Below, piece by piece: positions 19,659-47,857 of a stretch of DNA of 64,000 bases (its first letter is position 1; every line of letters begins with the position of its first letter). Both the position numbers and the translations under genes were made by a program. Where the stretch lies: positions 1,150,605 to 1,214,604 of the forward strand of contig UYJD01000004.1 of assembly GCA_900618795.1 (NCBI GenBank), read 5' to 3'. This DNA is from Cyanodermella asteris. Taxonomy: Eukaryota > Ascomycota > Lecanoromycetes > Ostropales > Stictidaceae. A model generated the notes under the pieces. That model ran no database searches. It was not told where the DNA came from and saw only the letters and a program-made list of their open reading frames with translations.

Positions 19659-20467
19659 ATGGCGGCAATACCGAATACATGGCATCTACGTACCGTGGCC
19701 GACAACGCGGGCAAGCCATGCTGGATCGATTACAAGATATCGACCGCGGTCTTGATCACGCCTGACAACAAGGTATACTTCCCTTCTAGATCATGCTTGC
19801 GGGTAGTGTGGTTGAGGCGAATCAGGACTTTTTCTATGTCTGTCGTGGTCATCTAAAAGACCGCACATTTGCAACACCGGCAACGCCCATCGAGGACGCG
19901 GACGCAAAGGCCAAAAAACGCGAAGAGGAGCTCCAGAAAGAAATCGAAGCCATCAAGAAGGAATACGCCGAAAAGCAGGCAAAGAAGAAGTCAAAAGACA
20001 AGGACGACAAAAAAGCCAAAAAGGAAGCCGAGGAAGAAGACAAGAAGCAAGAGCAAGAGAAGGACGACAAGGTGAGATCTCGCCCCGGCCCCCGTCTACT
20101 ACGCCTCTTCTATTGATTTCAAAAGCTAATCTGTAACCATGTCTCCAGATCAAAGCGGCCAAAGACAAGGCCGAAGGGCCGTCGGACACTTCCACGGATC
20201 TGCCACGGATATGGTCCCTTCATAGGTATGTTGTGCCGCTTGCGGTATTTTCTTCTGGATGGAGCCCTCATCTGCTGGTCCACATCATAACATGCACAAC
20301 GTCTCTGTTCCCGTGTTGGTGTTTGATGCAATGTGCCGTGCTGACAGAGCAGGAACTTCTACCAAATGCGACTGGACCGCATACGCAAAGCTGAAATCGC
20401 CCGGAGAAACCGTGAACGATTGCAAGATCCGAACGCCTTCCCATCGGCCCCAAGCGGAGATTTGTGA
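19659..20467 (+). CDS. vfa1: Vps4-associated protein 1 (Vfa1) homologue
   Basis: Yeast Vfa1 binds the AAA ATPase Vps4 and stimulates it at endosomes (ESCRT pathway). Four exons: 19659-19772, 19826-20071, 20149-20225 and 20353-20467; introns 53, 77 and 127 bp; 183 aa. The N-terminus follows the family: WHLRTVADNAGKPC, TAVLITPDNK joined across intron 1 to DFFYVCRGHLKDRTFATP. Then comes a long charged coiled coil rich in Lys/Glu (KKREEELQKEIEAIKKEYAE), and the C-terminus NFYQMRLDRIRKAEIARRN ending NAFPSAPSGDL, the Vps4-binding end. The family zinc motif is Cys-x-x-Cys followed by Cys-x-x-His; here the first pair reads CWID, so the second Cys is Asp while CRGH is kept. All splice phases agree. 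Confidence 0.88.
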
Positions 20468-24800: not shown

Positions 24801-27800
24801 ACGAGGTGACTGCTCGGTCAATTTTCATTCGACAATCTGCCTCAGATGTGACGATCGACACGAAACGACGTGATGGGACTGGCATGTCGTGGTGCGCAAA
24901 CGAGTGTTGCTCAAATGAGGGGTTGCTTGATGGCTGAGGGGCCCTATCTGGTACAGCATCGTCAAGGAAAAGAGCGGTTATGGTACGGCAATACTCGAAG
25001 CGAGGCTGCCGTTGCATGCTGATCAGCCCGGCGTCAAAGGTTGCAGCAAGGTAGGGCTGCTGGGAGACTGCGGCTGACACGATGGCAGCAGCCACAAGGA
25101 ATTGCTGGGGTGCGTGCAAATGCATTGATTCTTCGACTCTGGTGAAGCGAGGTGAGTGCAGGCAAGCATGTATGGTTCGCTGATGCATTTCTCCGATGCT
25201 CTCGTACGCTGACTGCGCAGGTATGAGCGCTCGATACAGCAACCGATAAGTTACGAAACGGCAGAAGCAGATACAGTTTCCTGGAGGCTTTCTGCAGTCA
25301 GACCGGCCTGTATCGCTTCCGGAAATGATAGACAGGCTTGGGAGCAAGCTTAGCGGCGCAGAAACAAGACTTGCTCTAGCCCTGTAAGGCCTTCTCGCTC
25401 ACCCCTCGGACAGAAAGTCGTGGTCCATATCCACGCTCAGCTGGCCCGTCAATCAGCGCTATTCACGCTCTCTGCCAGTTTGCCAGACCGCCGGGTATGG
25501 CTGAGGCATTAGCTGCTCCCACTGCGGACACTTCACTTTCCACCCTGGTAGATTACTAGTAGATATATGCGTTTGCAGGCCCCGCTCACTTGCCGCAGTT
25601 GTTGCAACTGGTCACCGTTGTGGACTTTCTACTGCTCGGGCTGCGCACTGGTTCTTGTGTGCTTTTCTCTTTCGGTTGCTTGCTTGCTTGCTCTCCCCTC
25701 CTTCTCCTTCGATGACCACTAGCGCTCGGCAAAGGTAGCAAGTGTGTGCACACGGTTGGACCGGGTCTGTCCTCGGCTTTGCACTCCGTGCCATCTGAGC
25801 CCTTCACTCTCACATAGTCTCACTCGTCGCGAGAGCACGGCAGCCGGCGGGGTGAGGAGGACACCTTGGGGGCAATTGTGGGAACCGGATCTCGAGTCTT
25901 TTCGGCAGGTATCGGCCGTGGGGTTAACTATCGCAGAATCGTCGTGCTGCTTCTCAACCGTCTTCTCGGGCAAGTCGGACGCGCACAGGCAGGAAAGGAG
26001 CGTGTGGTGCGGAAGTCACCAGCATTGCATTTATGAATTCAACCTGAAACGCCGCGCATAGCTGCCCGGGCACGGCACCCCATTGACGGACGACCTTGGA
26101 CCCCCGGTGCGTTATTAATGAGCGTGGCTCTGGGTGCACTGAAGCGCATTGCATTGGGTGAGCAGGTCTATACAAGAGCGTGCTCTTGTGCCGTTGGAAC
26201 TGCCGGCCGACAGAAGAACGAGATCATCGGTGTCCTCTGTCAATTCGGAAAGACTCCTTGAAGGGGCGAGCCCTGCCAGAAGGACCAAGGGAGCAGCGTG
26301 CGACCCACCGGCTCAACCAGACGCCCAGACCGCAGAGTAGCAACCGGAGACCAGTGCTTGGTCCCTTCTCCGGCCAGCAGCAGTTTCTGATTGCGGAATT
26401 ACTGGACCTCGACGAAGTCAGCAATCGAGAGTCCGGAATTGTGCGTGGGCAGCACTGACTTGCCCCAGCAGGCCGAAGCAGATATAACATCATCAGCAGA
26501 AGAGCGCAAGCAGGGAGCAGCCAGCAGCCAGCAGCACGCCCGCTCGCCAACAAGGTCGAGCTGACGAGGACGAGGGAAGCAAGGCCGGGGTCAGCACTTC
26601 AGCAGCGGTGCCCCGGAAGGTGTTCGCGGCGGCTGTTAGGTGAGGCGAGAGGCGGCGTTGATAGGGCAGGCCAGCAGGATTCACGGAGCAGCAGAATTGT
26701 TTAAAGGGCCCCCACTCGGGTCGCTGAGAGCTGCGGATCAGCCTGACCGGTGCGCAAGAGAGCGTCACGCAGATAGGTCCCCACCAGGCAAGTCCCGCCC
26801 CGTCTTCTTCAACGCTTTTCCTTGTCGCGTGGCCGGCCTTGTCTCTCGTCTGTTTCGTTTGAGCCTCATGAATCATGATGCCTGAGTGGCGGCTCGCTCG
26901 TCGTCCTGTCCTGTCCTGCCCTGTCCTGTCTCGTCTCGTCTCGTCTCGTCTCGTCTCGTCTGTCCTCGTACTGATCCTGGTCCTGCTCATTGCCCACCAC
27001 TGGCTCCTCTGCGCCCAGCCCCCAGCTGGACAAATCGGCTTGTCTCATGTCGCCGAGCTCGCTGGAGGCATTGGCGCAGGGCCCGGCGCTCGAGCGAGGG
27101 ATCTCTGTCTGGGCAGCATTGGGTCCATCCGCGATTGAAGCGAGCAGAGCGGTAGGGCAGGCCAGGTAGACGAAGAGTCCGGTGCATGACGAGTGCGTGG
27201 GCGTCACAAGTCAGTCGAATGTGCATCTGCCGAGAGAGTTGCTGTTATCCTGGATACCGGTTATCTTTGCACGAGTGATTCGCCGTCGACGCCGCGCACG
27301 GCAACGCTACAGAGGAGAGTTCAGCAGCAAAGTGCAGCGCAGCGCCGGCCCGCGCTCGGCAGCACAGCACAGAAGACTACTACTGGAACAGTAGATACAG
27401 ACGGACAGCACAGCGAAGGCTCGTCGACTACGCAAGCTGTAAGGCTGAGCGCCCCGCCTATCAAGGCCTCGGGATGCAGCATCGCGCTCTCGTTGGCTGC
27501 CATGCTCTCAGAAGCAGAGGCCGCTTCGAAACGCTTGACGCTTTCCATTCTCCCATTTTGCCTATCCATGCTCGACTGGGGCCACGCGCACGCTACCCGT
27601 CGCCCATCGAAGCATCTTTGCTCTCCTCTGCTTCGCTAGCCACTTACCGCCGGCCCGCTGCTCCTCTCATGTCATTCATTGTCCTTCCTTCATCCGCCAC
27701 TAGTATTGACCATTATGTTTTCCAGGTTTCCAAGATCTCGCCCTATACACCACCACGATTCGCCTCTCACCCTCCCATTTGCCAATTCCGGCAACCCGGC

Positions 27801-43423: not shown

Positions 43424-43889
43424 ATGTCCAACGCCGAACTTGCCTGCTCGTACGCCGCTCTCATCCTTGCCGATGAGGATGTCGAGATCACCGTGAGTTG
43501 GACGTCTCGGAACTGGCGAGATATAGGCCTATGAATTGACAATTTGCCAGGCGGACAAGCTCACTACCCTCATCACCGCCGCTAAGGTTCCCGAGGTCGA
43601 GCCCATCTGGGCCAGCCTCTTCGCGAAGGTACGACAGACAGCAGACCCGAATTGAAGGTTTCGACTTTCGACGTTGAATTTGATCTGACACGCGAAACAG
43701 GCTCTCGAGGGCAAGAGTGTCAAGGACCTCTTGACGAACGTCGGCTCAGGGGGAGGAGCCGCCGCGGCCCCCACCGCTGGTGGTCCTGCCGCTACTGGCG
43801 GTGACGCCCCCGCCGCTGTGGAAGAGAAGCCCAAGGAGGAGGAGAAGGAGGAGTCCGACGACGACATGGGCTTTGGACTGTTCGACTAA
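43424..43889 (+). CDS. rpp1: 60S acidic ribosomal protein P1
   Basis: P1 pairs with P2 in the lateral stalk of the large ribosomal subunit and recruits translation GTPases. Three exons, 43424-43492, 43551-43628 and 43701-43889, encode 111 aa, the usual size. The N-terminal dimerisation domain reads [20 protein letters not shown] and continues across intron 1 to [18 protein letters not shown]; an Ala/Gly-rich hinge follows ([15 protein letters not shown]), then the universal acidic tail ending [12 protein letters not shown], which contacts elongation factors. Introns are 58 and 72 bp with GTGAGT and GTACGA donors. Multiple short introns near the start codon are normal for fungal ribosomal protein genes. 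Confidence 0.97.
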
Positions 43890-44343
43890 GCGCGAAATCT
43901 CAATTGTCGGGTGACAAAAGACGAGGGAGTAAGCTGCGTTGCGTGCGAGGTTTTCCTCCTCGAATGACAAGCGAACATGATGTACACTTCTGCTGGTTGG
44001 CAAAGAGCATGACTGGGGCGCACTGTGCAGCGCGATGGGCTAGATCTTCGATTTCTCTTTTACGGGAACGGCATTGGTGTCAAGGATTGAGACAATGAAA
44101 ACGAACTTCTGAACCTGAAAGCCGATTGTAATGTGCGTCATGAGAAGGTGGTGATATTTCAGGTATGACCGTCAGCATCATTTTACGGGCCTGGAACTCT
44201 TTCGAATTGGTAGATGCTGCGGAGCAGTATGGACACCCATGATGGACAACATGAAATGAAATGACTCCATGAAAGCGATGCAAGGTAACTGTTTCAAATT
44301 CGTGCCAAATATACCGAGGAGAACACCTCTGCGCGTCCTCGAT
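43890..44343. other. 3' flanks of the P1 and RIX7 genes
   Basis: About 450 bp between two convergent genes, before the 12-bp array begins. No coding content is recognised. Confidence 0.4.
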
Positions 44344-44587
44344 CAAAGATTTACTCAACGACTAATTCAATGCCTGACTCGGCGACCTGGCAACGATTTA
44401 GCCAACGAGTTGATCAACTACCTGGTCAACTACCTAATCAACGACTTGGCCAACGACTCACAACAATACTTCAGAAGATACGCTGGTTTCGACTTTTGTA
44501 GCTCCCTCCTGTAGTACCCGTCGAGACCGGTACGTAGGTAATTGTGCAAGTAGAAGCTATGGTACTTTCGCAACGACTTCAGCTCCG
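44344..44587 (+). repeat. Degenerate 12-bp periodic array downstream of RIX7
   Basis: About 19-20 units with a 12-bp step, ending at the RIX7 stop codon. Best units begin at 44403, 44415, 44427, 44439 and 44451 (CAACGAGTTGAT, CAACTACCTGGT, CAACTACCTAAT, CAACGACTTGGC, CAACGACTCACA). The core CAACGACTT returns in phase at 44571, ten units after 44451. One 1-bp slip lies near 44391. Translated on the plus strand it gives a 4-residue rhythm (LANE-LINY-LVNY-LIND-LAND). RIX7 reads the other way, so the array is probably its 3' UTR. Confidence 0.8.
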
Positions 44588-46939
44588 TCACTTCGAGGTG
44601 CCAACTCCGTTCGCATCACTCTCGCCCAACTCAGACTGATCCAGCTGATACTCGACTGCACTGTTGCCGAATCGAGTCTTCAAGCGCTCAAATCCCTCCA
44701 TAGTCTTTTCACTGACCGACGGTCCCATCCTCTGAGCTCCTGCGACCCAGTCCACGTCCGTAATCTGGGTTTTCCCTTTCTCAATCGCACACTTGCCTGC
44801 CCTGGTCCTCAGAGCCTCCAAATCAGCGCCGGAGTAGCGCTCGCAAGCTCTCGCCAGCTTCTCAACCTCCTCGGTGAAGGCGATGCCGGTGTTGTTGCAG
44901 AGCGTCTTCAAGATATCGACTCTCTCGTCCGCACCAGGCAAATCAACGTAGAGTGGTGTTTCAAGGCGTCCTGGTCTCAGCATGGCTGGGTCAATGACGT
45001 CTGGCCGATTGGTGGCCCCAATAACGTATATTCCCTCTCTATCGCTCAAGCCATCAAGCTCCGTGAGCAGGGTATTGACGACCCTGGCGCTCGACTCGCC
45101 GAGATCGCTTCCACGTTTCGGCACGAGAGCATCAAGCTCGTCGAACAGGATAATGCAGGGTATGCTGGATCTGGCTCGCGTAAACACGTTGCGGACTTCC
45201 TTTTCGCTCTCTCCGACGTATTTGTTGAGCAGCTCGGGTCCCTTGACGGAAATGAAGTTCGCTTTCGACTCGTTGGCGACGGCTTTCGCGAGGAGTGTTT
45301 TACCGCAGCCCGGTGGGCCCCAGAGGAGGACGCCGGCGGGGGCGGTGATACCGACCTGGCGGTACAGGCCGGGATTCTTAATGGGTCCGACTATGGCGGT
45401 CATGAGCTCGCGGCGGACAGCGCCGAGAGCGCCAATGTTGCGCCAGGTGGTGTTGGGGACTGTAGCGAAGCCCTCACGTTTGGATGAGGGCTGCACGCGA
45501 GGAAGGGCGATGTCGAAGTCCGATTGCGTGAGGAAGACCGTGGTGTTCTTGGAATAATTATCACGGCTGGTTTCGATCCTTTTGAAAAGGGACAGATAGA
45601 ATGGCGAAACATTTGGCTGCTCTGGGTCAGACTGAGTTATCGGCGCCGACGTTTCTGATAGATCGCGTGTCACTGTTTCTGCGGATTCATCGTCGACCTC
45701 CATCTTGTACTCGCTATTACTCTCTTGGTATTGCCTCCTATATCGTTTGATAGCAACAGCTCCGGCTGTGTTGACGAGGTCCTTCAGATCAGCTCCCACA
45801 AAACCAGCTGTTCTGTTAGCAAGATAGCTTATGTTGAGATCCCCGTCCAGCTTCTTCTTCCGTAAAAGTGCCTGTAGAATCCTTCCCCTGGCTGCTTCGC
45901 CCGGTACAGTCATGTTGATCTCCCTGTCAAAGCGCCCACCACGCCTGAGGGCCGCATCCAAGCTGTCCGGCCGGTTTGTAGCTGCTATCACAATCACTGG
46001 CTTGCCTCCGGTCTTGTCTAGTGCGAGGTCATCCATACAGGTGAGCAGCTGGGCCACGATTCTCGTTTCCATCTGTCGTTGAGCGCTCTCTCGCTTCGGC
46101 GTGATTGCATCAATCTCATCGATAAATAGGATGGACGGTGCGAGCTTCTTCGCCTCCTCGAAATGATCCCGTAAAGCCTTTTCCGATTCGCCAGACATGC
46201 CGGAGACGACCGTTGGGGCGGATATCGAGAGAAAGGGTACCTTTAGCGCAGCTGCAAAGGCGTTTGCGACCGCTGTCTTGCCGCATCCGGGCGGTCCATG
46301 AAGAAGGATACCTCTCGGTGGTTCCAGATCCGAATTAATGTAGACATTGGGCTCGAGCAAGGGTGTCACGAGGAGCTCCTCGAGCTCAAGAACGACTTTC
46401 TCTACTCCACCAAGGTCTGCTAGATTCGCGTTCGGCGCTGGCTTGTGGTCCATCTTCCGACGTTTGGCAGAGGTTTCTTCTTCAGCGCGTGACTTCTTCT
46501 TACGTTTGCCGTCTGCACTCGCCTCTGCGGACTCCTTGTTGGTCTTGTTTCCGTTCGAGGTGGACGTCTGCACTGCGTACATCTTGGTTAGACTGCTGTT
46601 AAGCGTGTGCTTAGGCTCTGGGACTGAATTCTCGAGTCCTAGTCCGTCGAAATCTCCCTCAACGGGTCCCAAGTCGTCGATTTCGTCGTCTTCGTCGCCT
46701 CCTTGCTGTTGCCGATCCTCACGAAGTACGTCCATAACTCGTTCAATACTATCCTCAAGGGTTCTCCTGGGCTTCCTCCGCAAAGACGAGTTGGACGATT
46801 GAATGGTAGTATAAATCTCGCTAATTCGAGGCAGTTGGCTGTTGTCCCGTTCGTCTGCAAGTTTTTGGACTATCTGGAGCACTTCCCGGTCCAAATTTTG
46901 GCGCAGTGACGGTCTCTGGCCCCCGAATGTCTGTGGCAT
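44588..46939 (-). CDS. rix7: Rix7/NVL-type AAA ATPase for ribosome biogenesis
   Basis: Rix7 is a nuclear double-ring AAA ATPase that strips factors such as Nsa1 from pre-60S particles. The single exon encodes 783 aa. The N-terminal region has a conserved helical domain (LDREVLQIVQKLADE, residues 17-31), an acidic stretch (GDEDDEIDDLG) and a bipartite basic nuclear signal (KRKKKS to KRRKMDHK, about 145-167). The first AAA domain has Walker A GPPGCGKT at 215-222 and Walker B ILFIDEIDAI at about 270-279; the second has GPPGCGKT at 541-548 and LFDELDAL. Both sensor and arginine-finger regions (ATNRPDSLDAALRRGGRFDR, ATNRPDVIDPAMLRPGRLE) are present. It lies head to head with the CorA-like gene, and 12-bp arrays lie on both sides. 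Confidence 0.95.
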   Translation of the reverse strand: MPQTFGGQRPSLRQNLDREVLQIVQKLADERDNSQLPRISEIYTTIQSSNSSLRRKPRRTLEDSIERVMDVLREDRQQQGGDEDDEIDDLGPVEGDFDGLGLENSVPEPKHTLNSSLTKMYAVQTSTSNGNKTNKESAEASADGKRKKKSRAEEETSAKRRKMDHKPAPNANLADLGGVEKVVLELEELLVTPLLEPNVYINSDLEPPRGILLHGPPGCGKTAVANAFAAALKVPFLSISAPTVVSGMSGESEKALRDHFEEAKKLAPSILFIDEIDAITPKRESAQRQMETRIVAQLLTCMDDLALDKTGGKPVIVIAATNRPDSLDAALRRGGRFDREINMTVPGEAARGRILQALLRKKKLDGDLNISYLANRTAGFVGADLKDLVNTAGAVAIKRYRRQYQESNSEYKMEVDDESAETVTRDLSETSAPITQSDPEQPNVSPFYLSLFKRIETSRDNYSKNTTVFLTQSDFDIALPRVQPSSKREGFATVPNTTWRNIGALGAVRRELMTAIVGPIKNPGLYRQVGITAPAGVLLWGPPGCGKTLLAKAVANESKANFISVKGPELLNKYVGESEKEVRNVFTRARSSIPCIILFDELDALVPKRGSDLGESSARVVNTLLTELDGLSDREGIYVIGATNRPDVIDPAMLRPGRLETPLYVDLPGADERVDILKTLCNNTGIAFTEEVEKLARACERYSGADLEALRTRAGKCAIEKGKTQITDVDWVAGAQRMGPSVSEKTMEGFERLKTRFGNSAVEYQLDQSELGESDANGVGTSK

Positions 46940-47118
46940 GTTTGGCAGTCAGCGAGGATATTGGTTCTCGAGGAAAATGCCGACCAGACAACGGCTTTAT
47001 TCTCTTTGCATGGCGAAACTTTTTTGGAAATCGATGCCAAGACATCGAACACGGGCCACCTCACCATACATCCGCCAGAGTCATCTTAGAGCGCAGAAGT
47101 TGTTACTACTACCAGTGT
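46940..47118. promoter_or_regulatory. RIX7 upstream region
   Basis: About 180 bp directly upstream of the RIX7 ATG, ending where the 12-bp array starts. The RIX7 promoter should lie here or reach into the array. Confidence 0.35.
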
Positions 47119-47513
47119 GAGTGCCTCTGCAAGTCCTTGCAAGAGTACTTTCGCAGGTAACTTCATGAGTCCGCTCGCACGTACCTTGAGAAGTAGCTTG
47201 ACGACTATTTATTTTAGTTACTTTGCGTAAAGCTTCATGGGTGACCTTACACGTACCCCAACGAGTAGCTAGATGAGTGCTTCTATGAATCACTTCGCGA
47301 ATAGCTACATGAGTAGCTAACAAGGACCTGCCAGAGTACCTGCCAGAGTAGCTCTCTTAGTAGCTTAGGGAATGTCCCAATGAGTATCTTGATGGGTACC
47401 CTAACGAACGCTTTGACGTGTAGCTCTCTGAGTAGCTTGGGGAGTAGCTTTGCTGGTATTTTGAAAGGTAGCTTGACAGGTGCTTAGTTGATGACTTAGA
47501 TGGGCTGCTAGGC
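47119..47513 (+). repeat. Degenerate 12-bp periodic array upstream of RIX7
   Basis: About 33 units of 12 bp, consensus close to GAGTAGCTTGnn. Examples are AAGTAGCTTGAC (47191), GAGTAGCTAGAT (47263), GAGTAGCTAACA (47311), GAGTAGCTTGGG (47430), GAGTAGCTTTGC (47442) and AGGTAGCTTGAC (47466). Spacing is exactly 12 bp from 47119 to about 47322 and again from 47346 to 47513, with a single 1-bp slip between. Because 12 is a multiple of three, frames stay open and give 4-residue periodic peptides on the minus strand (THEV-TCES-TLAR-TCRG). I treat those as by-products, not as genes. Confidence 0.85.
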
Positions 47514-47857
47514 GGCTCCGCGGGAGCTCTGCTGGCGGATGGTGAACAGCGACCCCTCGTCGCCCTTGAGCGGCTCTGCATGCTGGTATATGATCTCAGC
47601 TTCCAAATGCGAGTGCCAACTTCGACTTTGCACGCACCCTGACTTCGAGCAGAACTTGCGACAGCTTCTGCCTCTCTCCATGAGGCAGTGATGTGCGATC
47701 GAATCCATGCGTGCATATACTTAGCGGACTAAGCGCGCTCAATCTCGATGAAACCTTTGCTCGAGCCTGGGCAACTTCAATTCTGAAACCATCATCGTCC
47801 TGACAACAGCTCGAAGATCGTGGTCTCTGATCACGCATCGATCTCTCATCTCGCAGA
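47514..47857. promoter_or_regulatory. Upstream region of the CorA-like gene
   Basis: About 340 bp between the 12-bp array and the CorA-like ATG. No gene or repeat is recognised. Confidence 0.35.

Follow-up and report, generated by a model that had tools for sequence, protein, structure and literature searches.

Why is the RIX7 gene of the ascomycete Cyanodermella asteris bracketed by two arrays of degenerate 12-bp repeats? We addressed this question in a stretch of 64,000 nucleotides from contig UYJD01000004.1 (GenBank assembly GCA_900618795.1, positions 1,150,605 to 1,214,604), referred to below as the window. Our analysis makes it likely that both arrays, A at the stop codon of the gene and B upstream of its start codon, derive from the inner parts of old elements belonging to one family of miniature inverted-repeat transposable elements (MITEs), and that they came to flank RIX7 by chance.

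The initial annotation described 12-bp arrays on both sides of the gene, and this observation stands. Period 12 is present at 44344-44460 (A) and at about 47110-47515 (B), with 67 lag-12 matches per 120 positions in each, compared with a background across the window of 33.0 matches (standard deviation 6.1). Tandem Repeats Finder (TRF) reported A as 44383-44458 with period 12, and only a 25-bp piece of B; the extents were corrected, with A now forming part of 44281-44595 and B running from 47110 to 47515. The product of the gene between them contains two AAA domains, and its top PDB match is Rix7 (7t3i, E 3.1e-165).

44588..46939, minus strand: RIX7 / NVL-type AAA ATPase, a 783-amino-acid open reading frame (ORF); host gene outside the element (ORF, domains, PDB match)
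44344..44460, plus strand: array A, 12-bp units of about TCAACGACTTAG (lag-12 matches, profile, alignment)
47110..47515, plus strand: array B, composed of about 34 GAGTACCTTGAC-type units, ends unrecognisable (score of the L021 profile described below)

The transposon family is defined by copies outside the window. We searched the 28.5-Mb genome with patterns; loci fetched from it carry L-numbers and its contigs C-numbers. The outer end of the terminal inverted repeat (TIR) matches 394 places (17 for the reversed pattern), its inner, leader part matches 285 (87 when reversed), and a pattern of 31 bases from the array matches 31 (none for the control). Many of the 100 places listed for the inner pattern are inverted pairs. 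Within 43 loci (39 from L023-L062, chosen at TIR-pattern matches, plus L012, L016, L018 and L063), a script recovered 32 pairs of inverted ends measuring 124-359 bp end to end; 11 loci held no pair. The ends begin CAAGGCGGG..., and 4-bp target duplications lie directly outside CAAGGCGGG...CCCGCCTTG. These duplications are exact in 15 of the 32 pairs and match at 3 of 4 bases in 7 more, while no other duplication length or shift exceeds 1/32 (lengths 4, 5, 6, 8 and 9 and shifts of -2 to 2 were tried). Between the ends, a cyclic 12-column model built from 30 of the 32 interiors yields the unit AAGTACCTAGCT and covers 3906 of 4815 bases, with approximately 3 to 18 units per element. With TIRs, a fixed 4-bp duplication, short length and many dispersed copies on many contigs, this is a MITE family with a 12-bp minisatellite as its interior; we regard it as new, although its kind is known. 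Coding capacity was judged from element length only.

Besides the duplications described above, a perfect 4-bp duplication flanks 8 of the 16 copies with both ends in the subfamily of L078, a 221-bp copy on C9 with CGCG on both sides, against 5 of 240 mismatched pairings (the subfamily measures 220 bp; both ends were not found in 3 of its 19 copies). The array travels together with its element, and its length varies in steps of whole units. In the commonest subfamily (16 copies), 148 of 266 internal alignment gaps of at least 6 bases are multiples of 12, a count taken over all pairs, which are not independent. L026 and L027, on different contigs, differ by exactly 24 bp in the array, and by a further 8 bp near the left end. 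For the inner anchors, 14 pairs were chosen by eye from the 100 places listed out of 285; 8 of these pairs are spaced by 12n+2 (p 4e-6 for this residue, approximately 5e-5 for any residue). Full element lengths are less clean, with 20 of 32 falling at 2-4 modulo 12.

Array A can be placed inside such an element. Copy L078 matches window 44281-44595 by blastn (E 1.9e-9 and 3e-4, against 229 kb of fetched loci), and its global alignment score with this segment is 5.5, compared with -49.6 +/- 6.1 for 200 base shuffles (maximum -29.5; z about 9). In an alignment of L078 with 18 more copies, some of them partial, the window sequence can be matched to the element over its course, starting with CAAGG at 44281 and ending at 44595.

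44281..44595, plus strand: MITE copy A, degenerate, 315 bp, in the orientation of L078 (blastn, global alignment, copy alignment)
44281..44340, plus strand: left end of copy A with the sequence next to it, ungapped to L078 from CAAGG (L078 alignment)
44569..44595, minus strand: right TIR of copy A (TIR profile p=0.015; ungapped with L078)

Copy A has about 94 bp (8 units) beyond the other aligned copies, placed at approximately 44341-44435 and consisting of units that resemble the one TTCAACGACTTA present in other copies at this position. With window A excluded, the majority sequence built from the 19 copies has its top lags at 24 (z 4.5), 36 (2.9) and 12 (2.8), with 20 next (2.1), and among the 12 single copies with a printed value, window A included, the best lag is 12 or 24 in all except L100 and L101. 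On this alignment, A is most likely a 12-bp minisatellite that has expanded inside a MITE, or else one whose units the other copies have lost. The arrays traced to this family offer a concrete example of a minisatellite that was seeded within a MITE and altered its length there. These boundaries supersede earlier ones: a left start chosen by eye near 44306-44312 was replaced by 44281, and a right end chosen by eye at 44475-44511 was dropped, together with the ends of B chosen by eye, as a profile of one subfamily gave no significant end there. A at one time had two competing right ends; the present one comes from the L078 alignment.

The position of the right end has a consequence for the gene. 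The RIX7 stop codon TGA (44590-44588) appears to lie inside the right TIR of copy A, the C-terminus of the protein reading ...VGTSK*. Since this end contains both the stop and the preceding lysine codon, the element probably supplied them, as judged from the 27-bp alignment. A MITE end would appear, then, to furnish the last codon and the stop of an essential gene.

How does array B relate to A? The initial annotation described the two as related, with a common 12-bp pattern in the same orientation. We learned 12-bp units for each array and compared them with column-permuted controls (2000 permutations; p values uncorrected for 11 and 15 tests, with 0.0005 the floor of the test). Compared directly, A and B are no closer than their controls (p=0.27), so a shared unit is not upheld at this level, and the two arrays are connected only indirectly, by way of other loci in the genome. 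Half of the refutation named in the initial annotation is borne out by this result. Orientation proved to be only loosely defined, since the family unit is almost its own reverse complement, with near self-complementarity around GTAC and AGCT; the profile of the TIR family matches B once on the plus strand (19.0) and once on the minus strand (16.7).

This indirect link takes several forms. At the sequence level (A taken as 44344-44590, 300 column permutations), both arrays match eight other period-12 arrays of the genome on summed score, B with p=0.007 (0.03 for the best score) and A with p=0.03 (0.14 for the best). Against the 33 loci fetched for TIR elements, the best scores give p=0.04 for A and 0.02 for B, and the sums 0.11 and 0.06. 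A profile of the TIR-element interior, trained on no sequence from the window, scores 22.6 on A and 19.0 and 16.7 on parts of B in a 244-kb scan, in which 12 permuted profiles mostly stay below 17. Its matches to L018 and to the second L012 element (as L036) are not independent, as both were in its training set.

B also belongs to a recognisable dialect. A profile made from the L021 array alone, on C19, scores 145.7 on B over 47110-47515 and 32.5 at the next best place elsewhere. None of 300 column-permuted L021 profiles reaches 145.7 on B (best 70.7). Permuted profiles can score up to 64.3 on other strong arrays, so that little can be read from low profile scores by themselves. A search aimed at this dialect found a third array with it, L064 on C12 (73.8). 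In the unit comparison B is close to L021 (p=0.0005), L013 (p=0.011) and L017 (p=0.008), and the units of L013 and L017 are in turn close to that of the TIR elements (p=0.004 and 0.007).

Several results weigh against assigning both arrays to the family. For A, the left end is missed by the general TIR profile alone (p=0.63), and the right end is detected at p=0.015 only. A 4-bp duplication is not recognisable (GATG at 44277-44280, AGGT at 44596-44599); the copy is degenerate, and 8 of the 16 other copies likewise have no perfect one. A genome search with L078 returned 53 rows, 16 of which match at least 198 of 241 bases (query included), and the window copy is not among them, presumably because it is too diverged for that search. 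Furthermore, one of the 12 permuted interior profiles outscored the real one on A (31.8 versus 22.6) and on L019 (30.3 versus 16.6). For B, the unit differs from its controls only at p=0.11 when compared with the TIR-element unit, and the TIR profile finds no ends (p=0.54 left, 0.17 right), nor does it find any at L013, L017, L019, L021 or L064. Among known elements used as controls, the same profile detected both ends of L018 and the left ends of L012 and L016, and missed the right ends of L016 and of L012, where another repeat follows.

The results for B open the way to a different explanation, in which A is a MITE and B, with L021 and L064, represents separate, free 12-bp minisatellites born of local slippage, their common period and unit being convergent. 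The absence of a detectable TIR at all three arrays fits this account, as does the distance of the B unit from that of the TIR elements, and in DNA searches at E up to 1 neither B nor the L021 array retrieves anything but itself. Against it stand the links of B to L013 and L017, which are themselves linked to the TIR-element unit, and the resemblance of B to the other eight arrays. A dialect present on three contigs is, in addition, not easily obtained from independent slippage. We therefore regard convergence as unlikely. B is an array of the same type as A and not a proven MITE, because no TIRs are detectable; it is most likely an older member whose ends have decayed.

The idea of one dispersed minisatellite family, as put forward in the initial annotation, is accordingly retained in part: A and B each match the other arrays on summed score, and their direct comparison stays at the level of chance. 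Recombination, the carrier proposed there, gives way to transposition, the arrays riding on short inverted-repeat transposons. Close copies of either array are lacking by the pattern test (at most 3 mismatches, whole genome), since each consensus pattern matches only its copy in the window: that of B once (2 for the reversed control), and that of A at two overlapping places (0 for the reversed control).

We are now able to propose how the locus may have arisen. Small non-autonomous elements with inverted ends CAAGGCGGG, a degenerate 12-bp interior of AAGTACCTAGCT and its dialects, and a 4-bp duplication would have been moved by a transposase acting on their ends. Whole 12-bp units, whose gain and loss is visible among the copies, may have been added or removed by slippage or unequal exchange. 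One copy would have landed at the 3' end of RIX7, either beside it or within it, and gained about 8 units, unless the other copies lost them, and B would be an older array of the same kind with decayed ends.

Does the flanking of RIX7 itself call for an explanation? To place the arrays in context, we used a systematic sample of 18 stretches of 10 kb (180 kb), one at position 200001 of each contig from C3 to C20; C1 and C2 are not long enough to give such a stretch. Sample and window together (244 kb) were scanned for lags 4 to 60 in 120-bp windows, and 12 is the lag with the most runs at each of three thresholds. The sample yielded 14 lag-12 rows outside the window. Five were dropped (an N run in L012, and L005, L006, L018:7171 and L020, by eye coding or simple repeats) and two L021 rows were merged, leaving the eight arrays used above, or about one per 22 kb. 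Four of the eight begin with a common leader that is the TIR, and the end profile gave five end matches. A third lag-12 stretch in the window (19919-20105) is lysine-rich coding sequence by eye and was omitted from the scan results, where it spans 19940-20096. Part of the arrays with this commonest degenerate tandem period of the genome, as scanned, is traceable to one transposon family, and a transposon origin explains why similar 12-bp arrays stand beside unrelated genes.

At some 8 arrays per 180 kb, a Poisson estimate gives roughly a 1 in 10 chance of an array neighbour within 2.5 kb, the distance between A and B, and another pair, 1.8 kb apart, occurs in L012 within the sample. Two arrays around one gene therefore need no special explanation. 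The initial annotation also raised a boundary or regulatory element, and one could suppose that the arrays have been kept around RIX7 for a function as boundary, promoter or terminator, given that the start codon has B about 170 bp upstream of it and the stop codon adjoins A. The density of arrays, including the L012 pair, leaves such a role unsupported; copies are scattered on many contigs, and A and B are degenerate with no demonstrable shared unit. We consider it very improbable. A further proposal, that RIX7 was inserted into an older array and split it, would account for the equal period on both sides. It is contradicted by array A, a distinct element that has boundaries and a subfamily of its own, and by units in A and B that are no more alike than chance, and we find it scarcely credible. 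What remains is a genome with hundreds of traces of small 12-bp-repeat elements, A and B most likely being old copies of these, so that their position around RIX7 looks like chance.

The family has parallels among known transposons. The En/Spm (CACTA) elements carry subterminal 12-bp TnpA-binding repeats of fixed sequence and create 3-bp duplications. They resemble the present family in having repeated 12-bp motifs inside a DNA transposon, and differ in the placement and constancy of those repeats and in duplication length. The 12-bp units of the present family might be working binding sites for the transposase or a host factor and not passengers, their number tuning mobility or nearby transcription, with the dialect of B, L021 and L064 representing end-less, free mobile minisatellites, a combination that we think doubtful. 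A 4-bp duplication is not known to fit Tc1/mariner, hAT, MULE, PIF or CACTA.

Animal MITEs with internal tandem repeats include Xmix/Xstir and miDNA4 of Xenopus and the (GTCY)n MITEs of Lepidoptera, according to a review (PMC9659126). As in those cases, a short non-autonomous inverted-repeat element holds a tandem array and is spread by transposition, whereas the fungal host, the 12-bp unit, the 4-bp duplication and the degenerate interior with several dialects set the present family apart. Galileo and Foldback, of the P superfamily in Drosophila, are also inverted-repeat transposons with expanding and contracting tandem repeats, but Galileo has its repeats, of approximately 210 bp, within the inverted repeats, and its duplications measure 7 bp, according to the sections consulted (PMC3573991). 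The present units of 12 bp lie between the ends, with 4-bp duplications, and do not have the defining features of Galileo/Foldback. In fungi, the excerpts available for Zymoseptoria (Mycosphaerella) graminicola describe duplications of 2, 5-6 or 8-9 bp for 12 of 13 MITE families, some of which share ends and not interiors, and a greater prevalence in gene-rich regions (PMC4522978). The present family is likewise fungal, and is comparable to the Zymoseptoria MITEs in these shared ends with different interiors and in this prevalence. It differs in its 4-bp duplication, and a 12-bp interior is not mentioned in those excerpts. The seven MITEs of Cochliobolus are related to Tc1-Mariner, as stated in the portion of the source used (PMC4112212). 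In the open-licence literature searched, including the excerpted portions of these last two papers, no fungal MITE with a 12-bp interior was found.

No transposase or autonomous copy was found among the 100 of 394 end positions listed, with one long pair checked and no transposase family search made. One candidate autonomous copy, at C24:87045-91920 (a 4.7-kb interval), was rejected as a false pair; it holds two frames of other types, which we take to be UDP-glucose-epimerase-like and cytochrome-c-peroxidase-like. Two readings of the unit were also discarded. Repeat-induced point mutation (RIP; CpA to TpA) was dropped as the source of unit variation: C and T are most mixed in the three columns that precede A, but within these columns T shows no association with A as the next base (Fisher p 0.35, 0.07 and 0.39). 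A coding reading of the unit (AAG TAC CTA GCT) was dropped by eye, in-frame stops and indels being common in the arrays.

Further repeats were seen alongside the family. A second subfamily of approximately 200 bp has ends of CAAGGCGGGCTGACAGAAGTC or near and the same outer nine bases (L043-L047, L067-L077 and L079-L082), with no clean 12-bp array by eye. At L083:101-185 there is a very short copy, in which two inverted ends stand almost back to back, 85 bp in total, with CTAT flanking both sides. Another dispersed repeat occurs at L015:8299-9310, at L012:7986-8339 and, as assigned by eye, in L047. Its inverted parts in L015 measure 175 bp at 95% identity; it adjoins the 12-bp array in L012, and parts of it read N in L012 and L047. 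On the 27.6-kb contig C2, 12-bp units lie within the first 140 bases (C2:70-136), and this array may sit at an assembly break.

In the window, copy A separates RIX7 from a gene convergent with it (43500-43890, plus strand), the product of which ends, we assume from its signature, like the 60S acidic ribosomal protein P1. RIX7 and this P1-like gene, both ribosome-related, are arranged tail to tail with the MITE between them. Elsewhere in the window, tandem arrays of GTCTC/GTCCT pentamers occupy 26897-26982.

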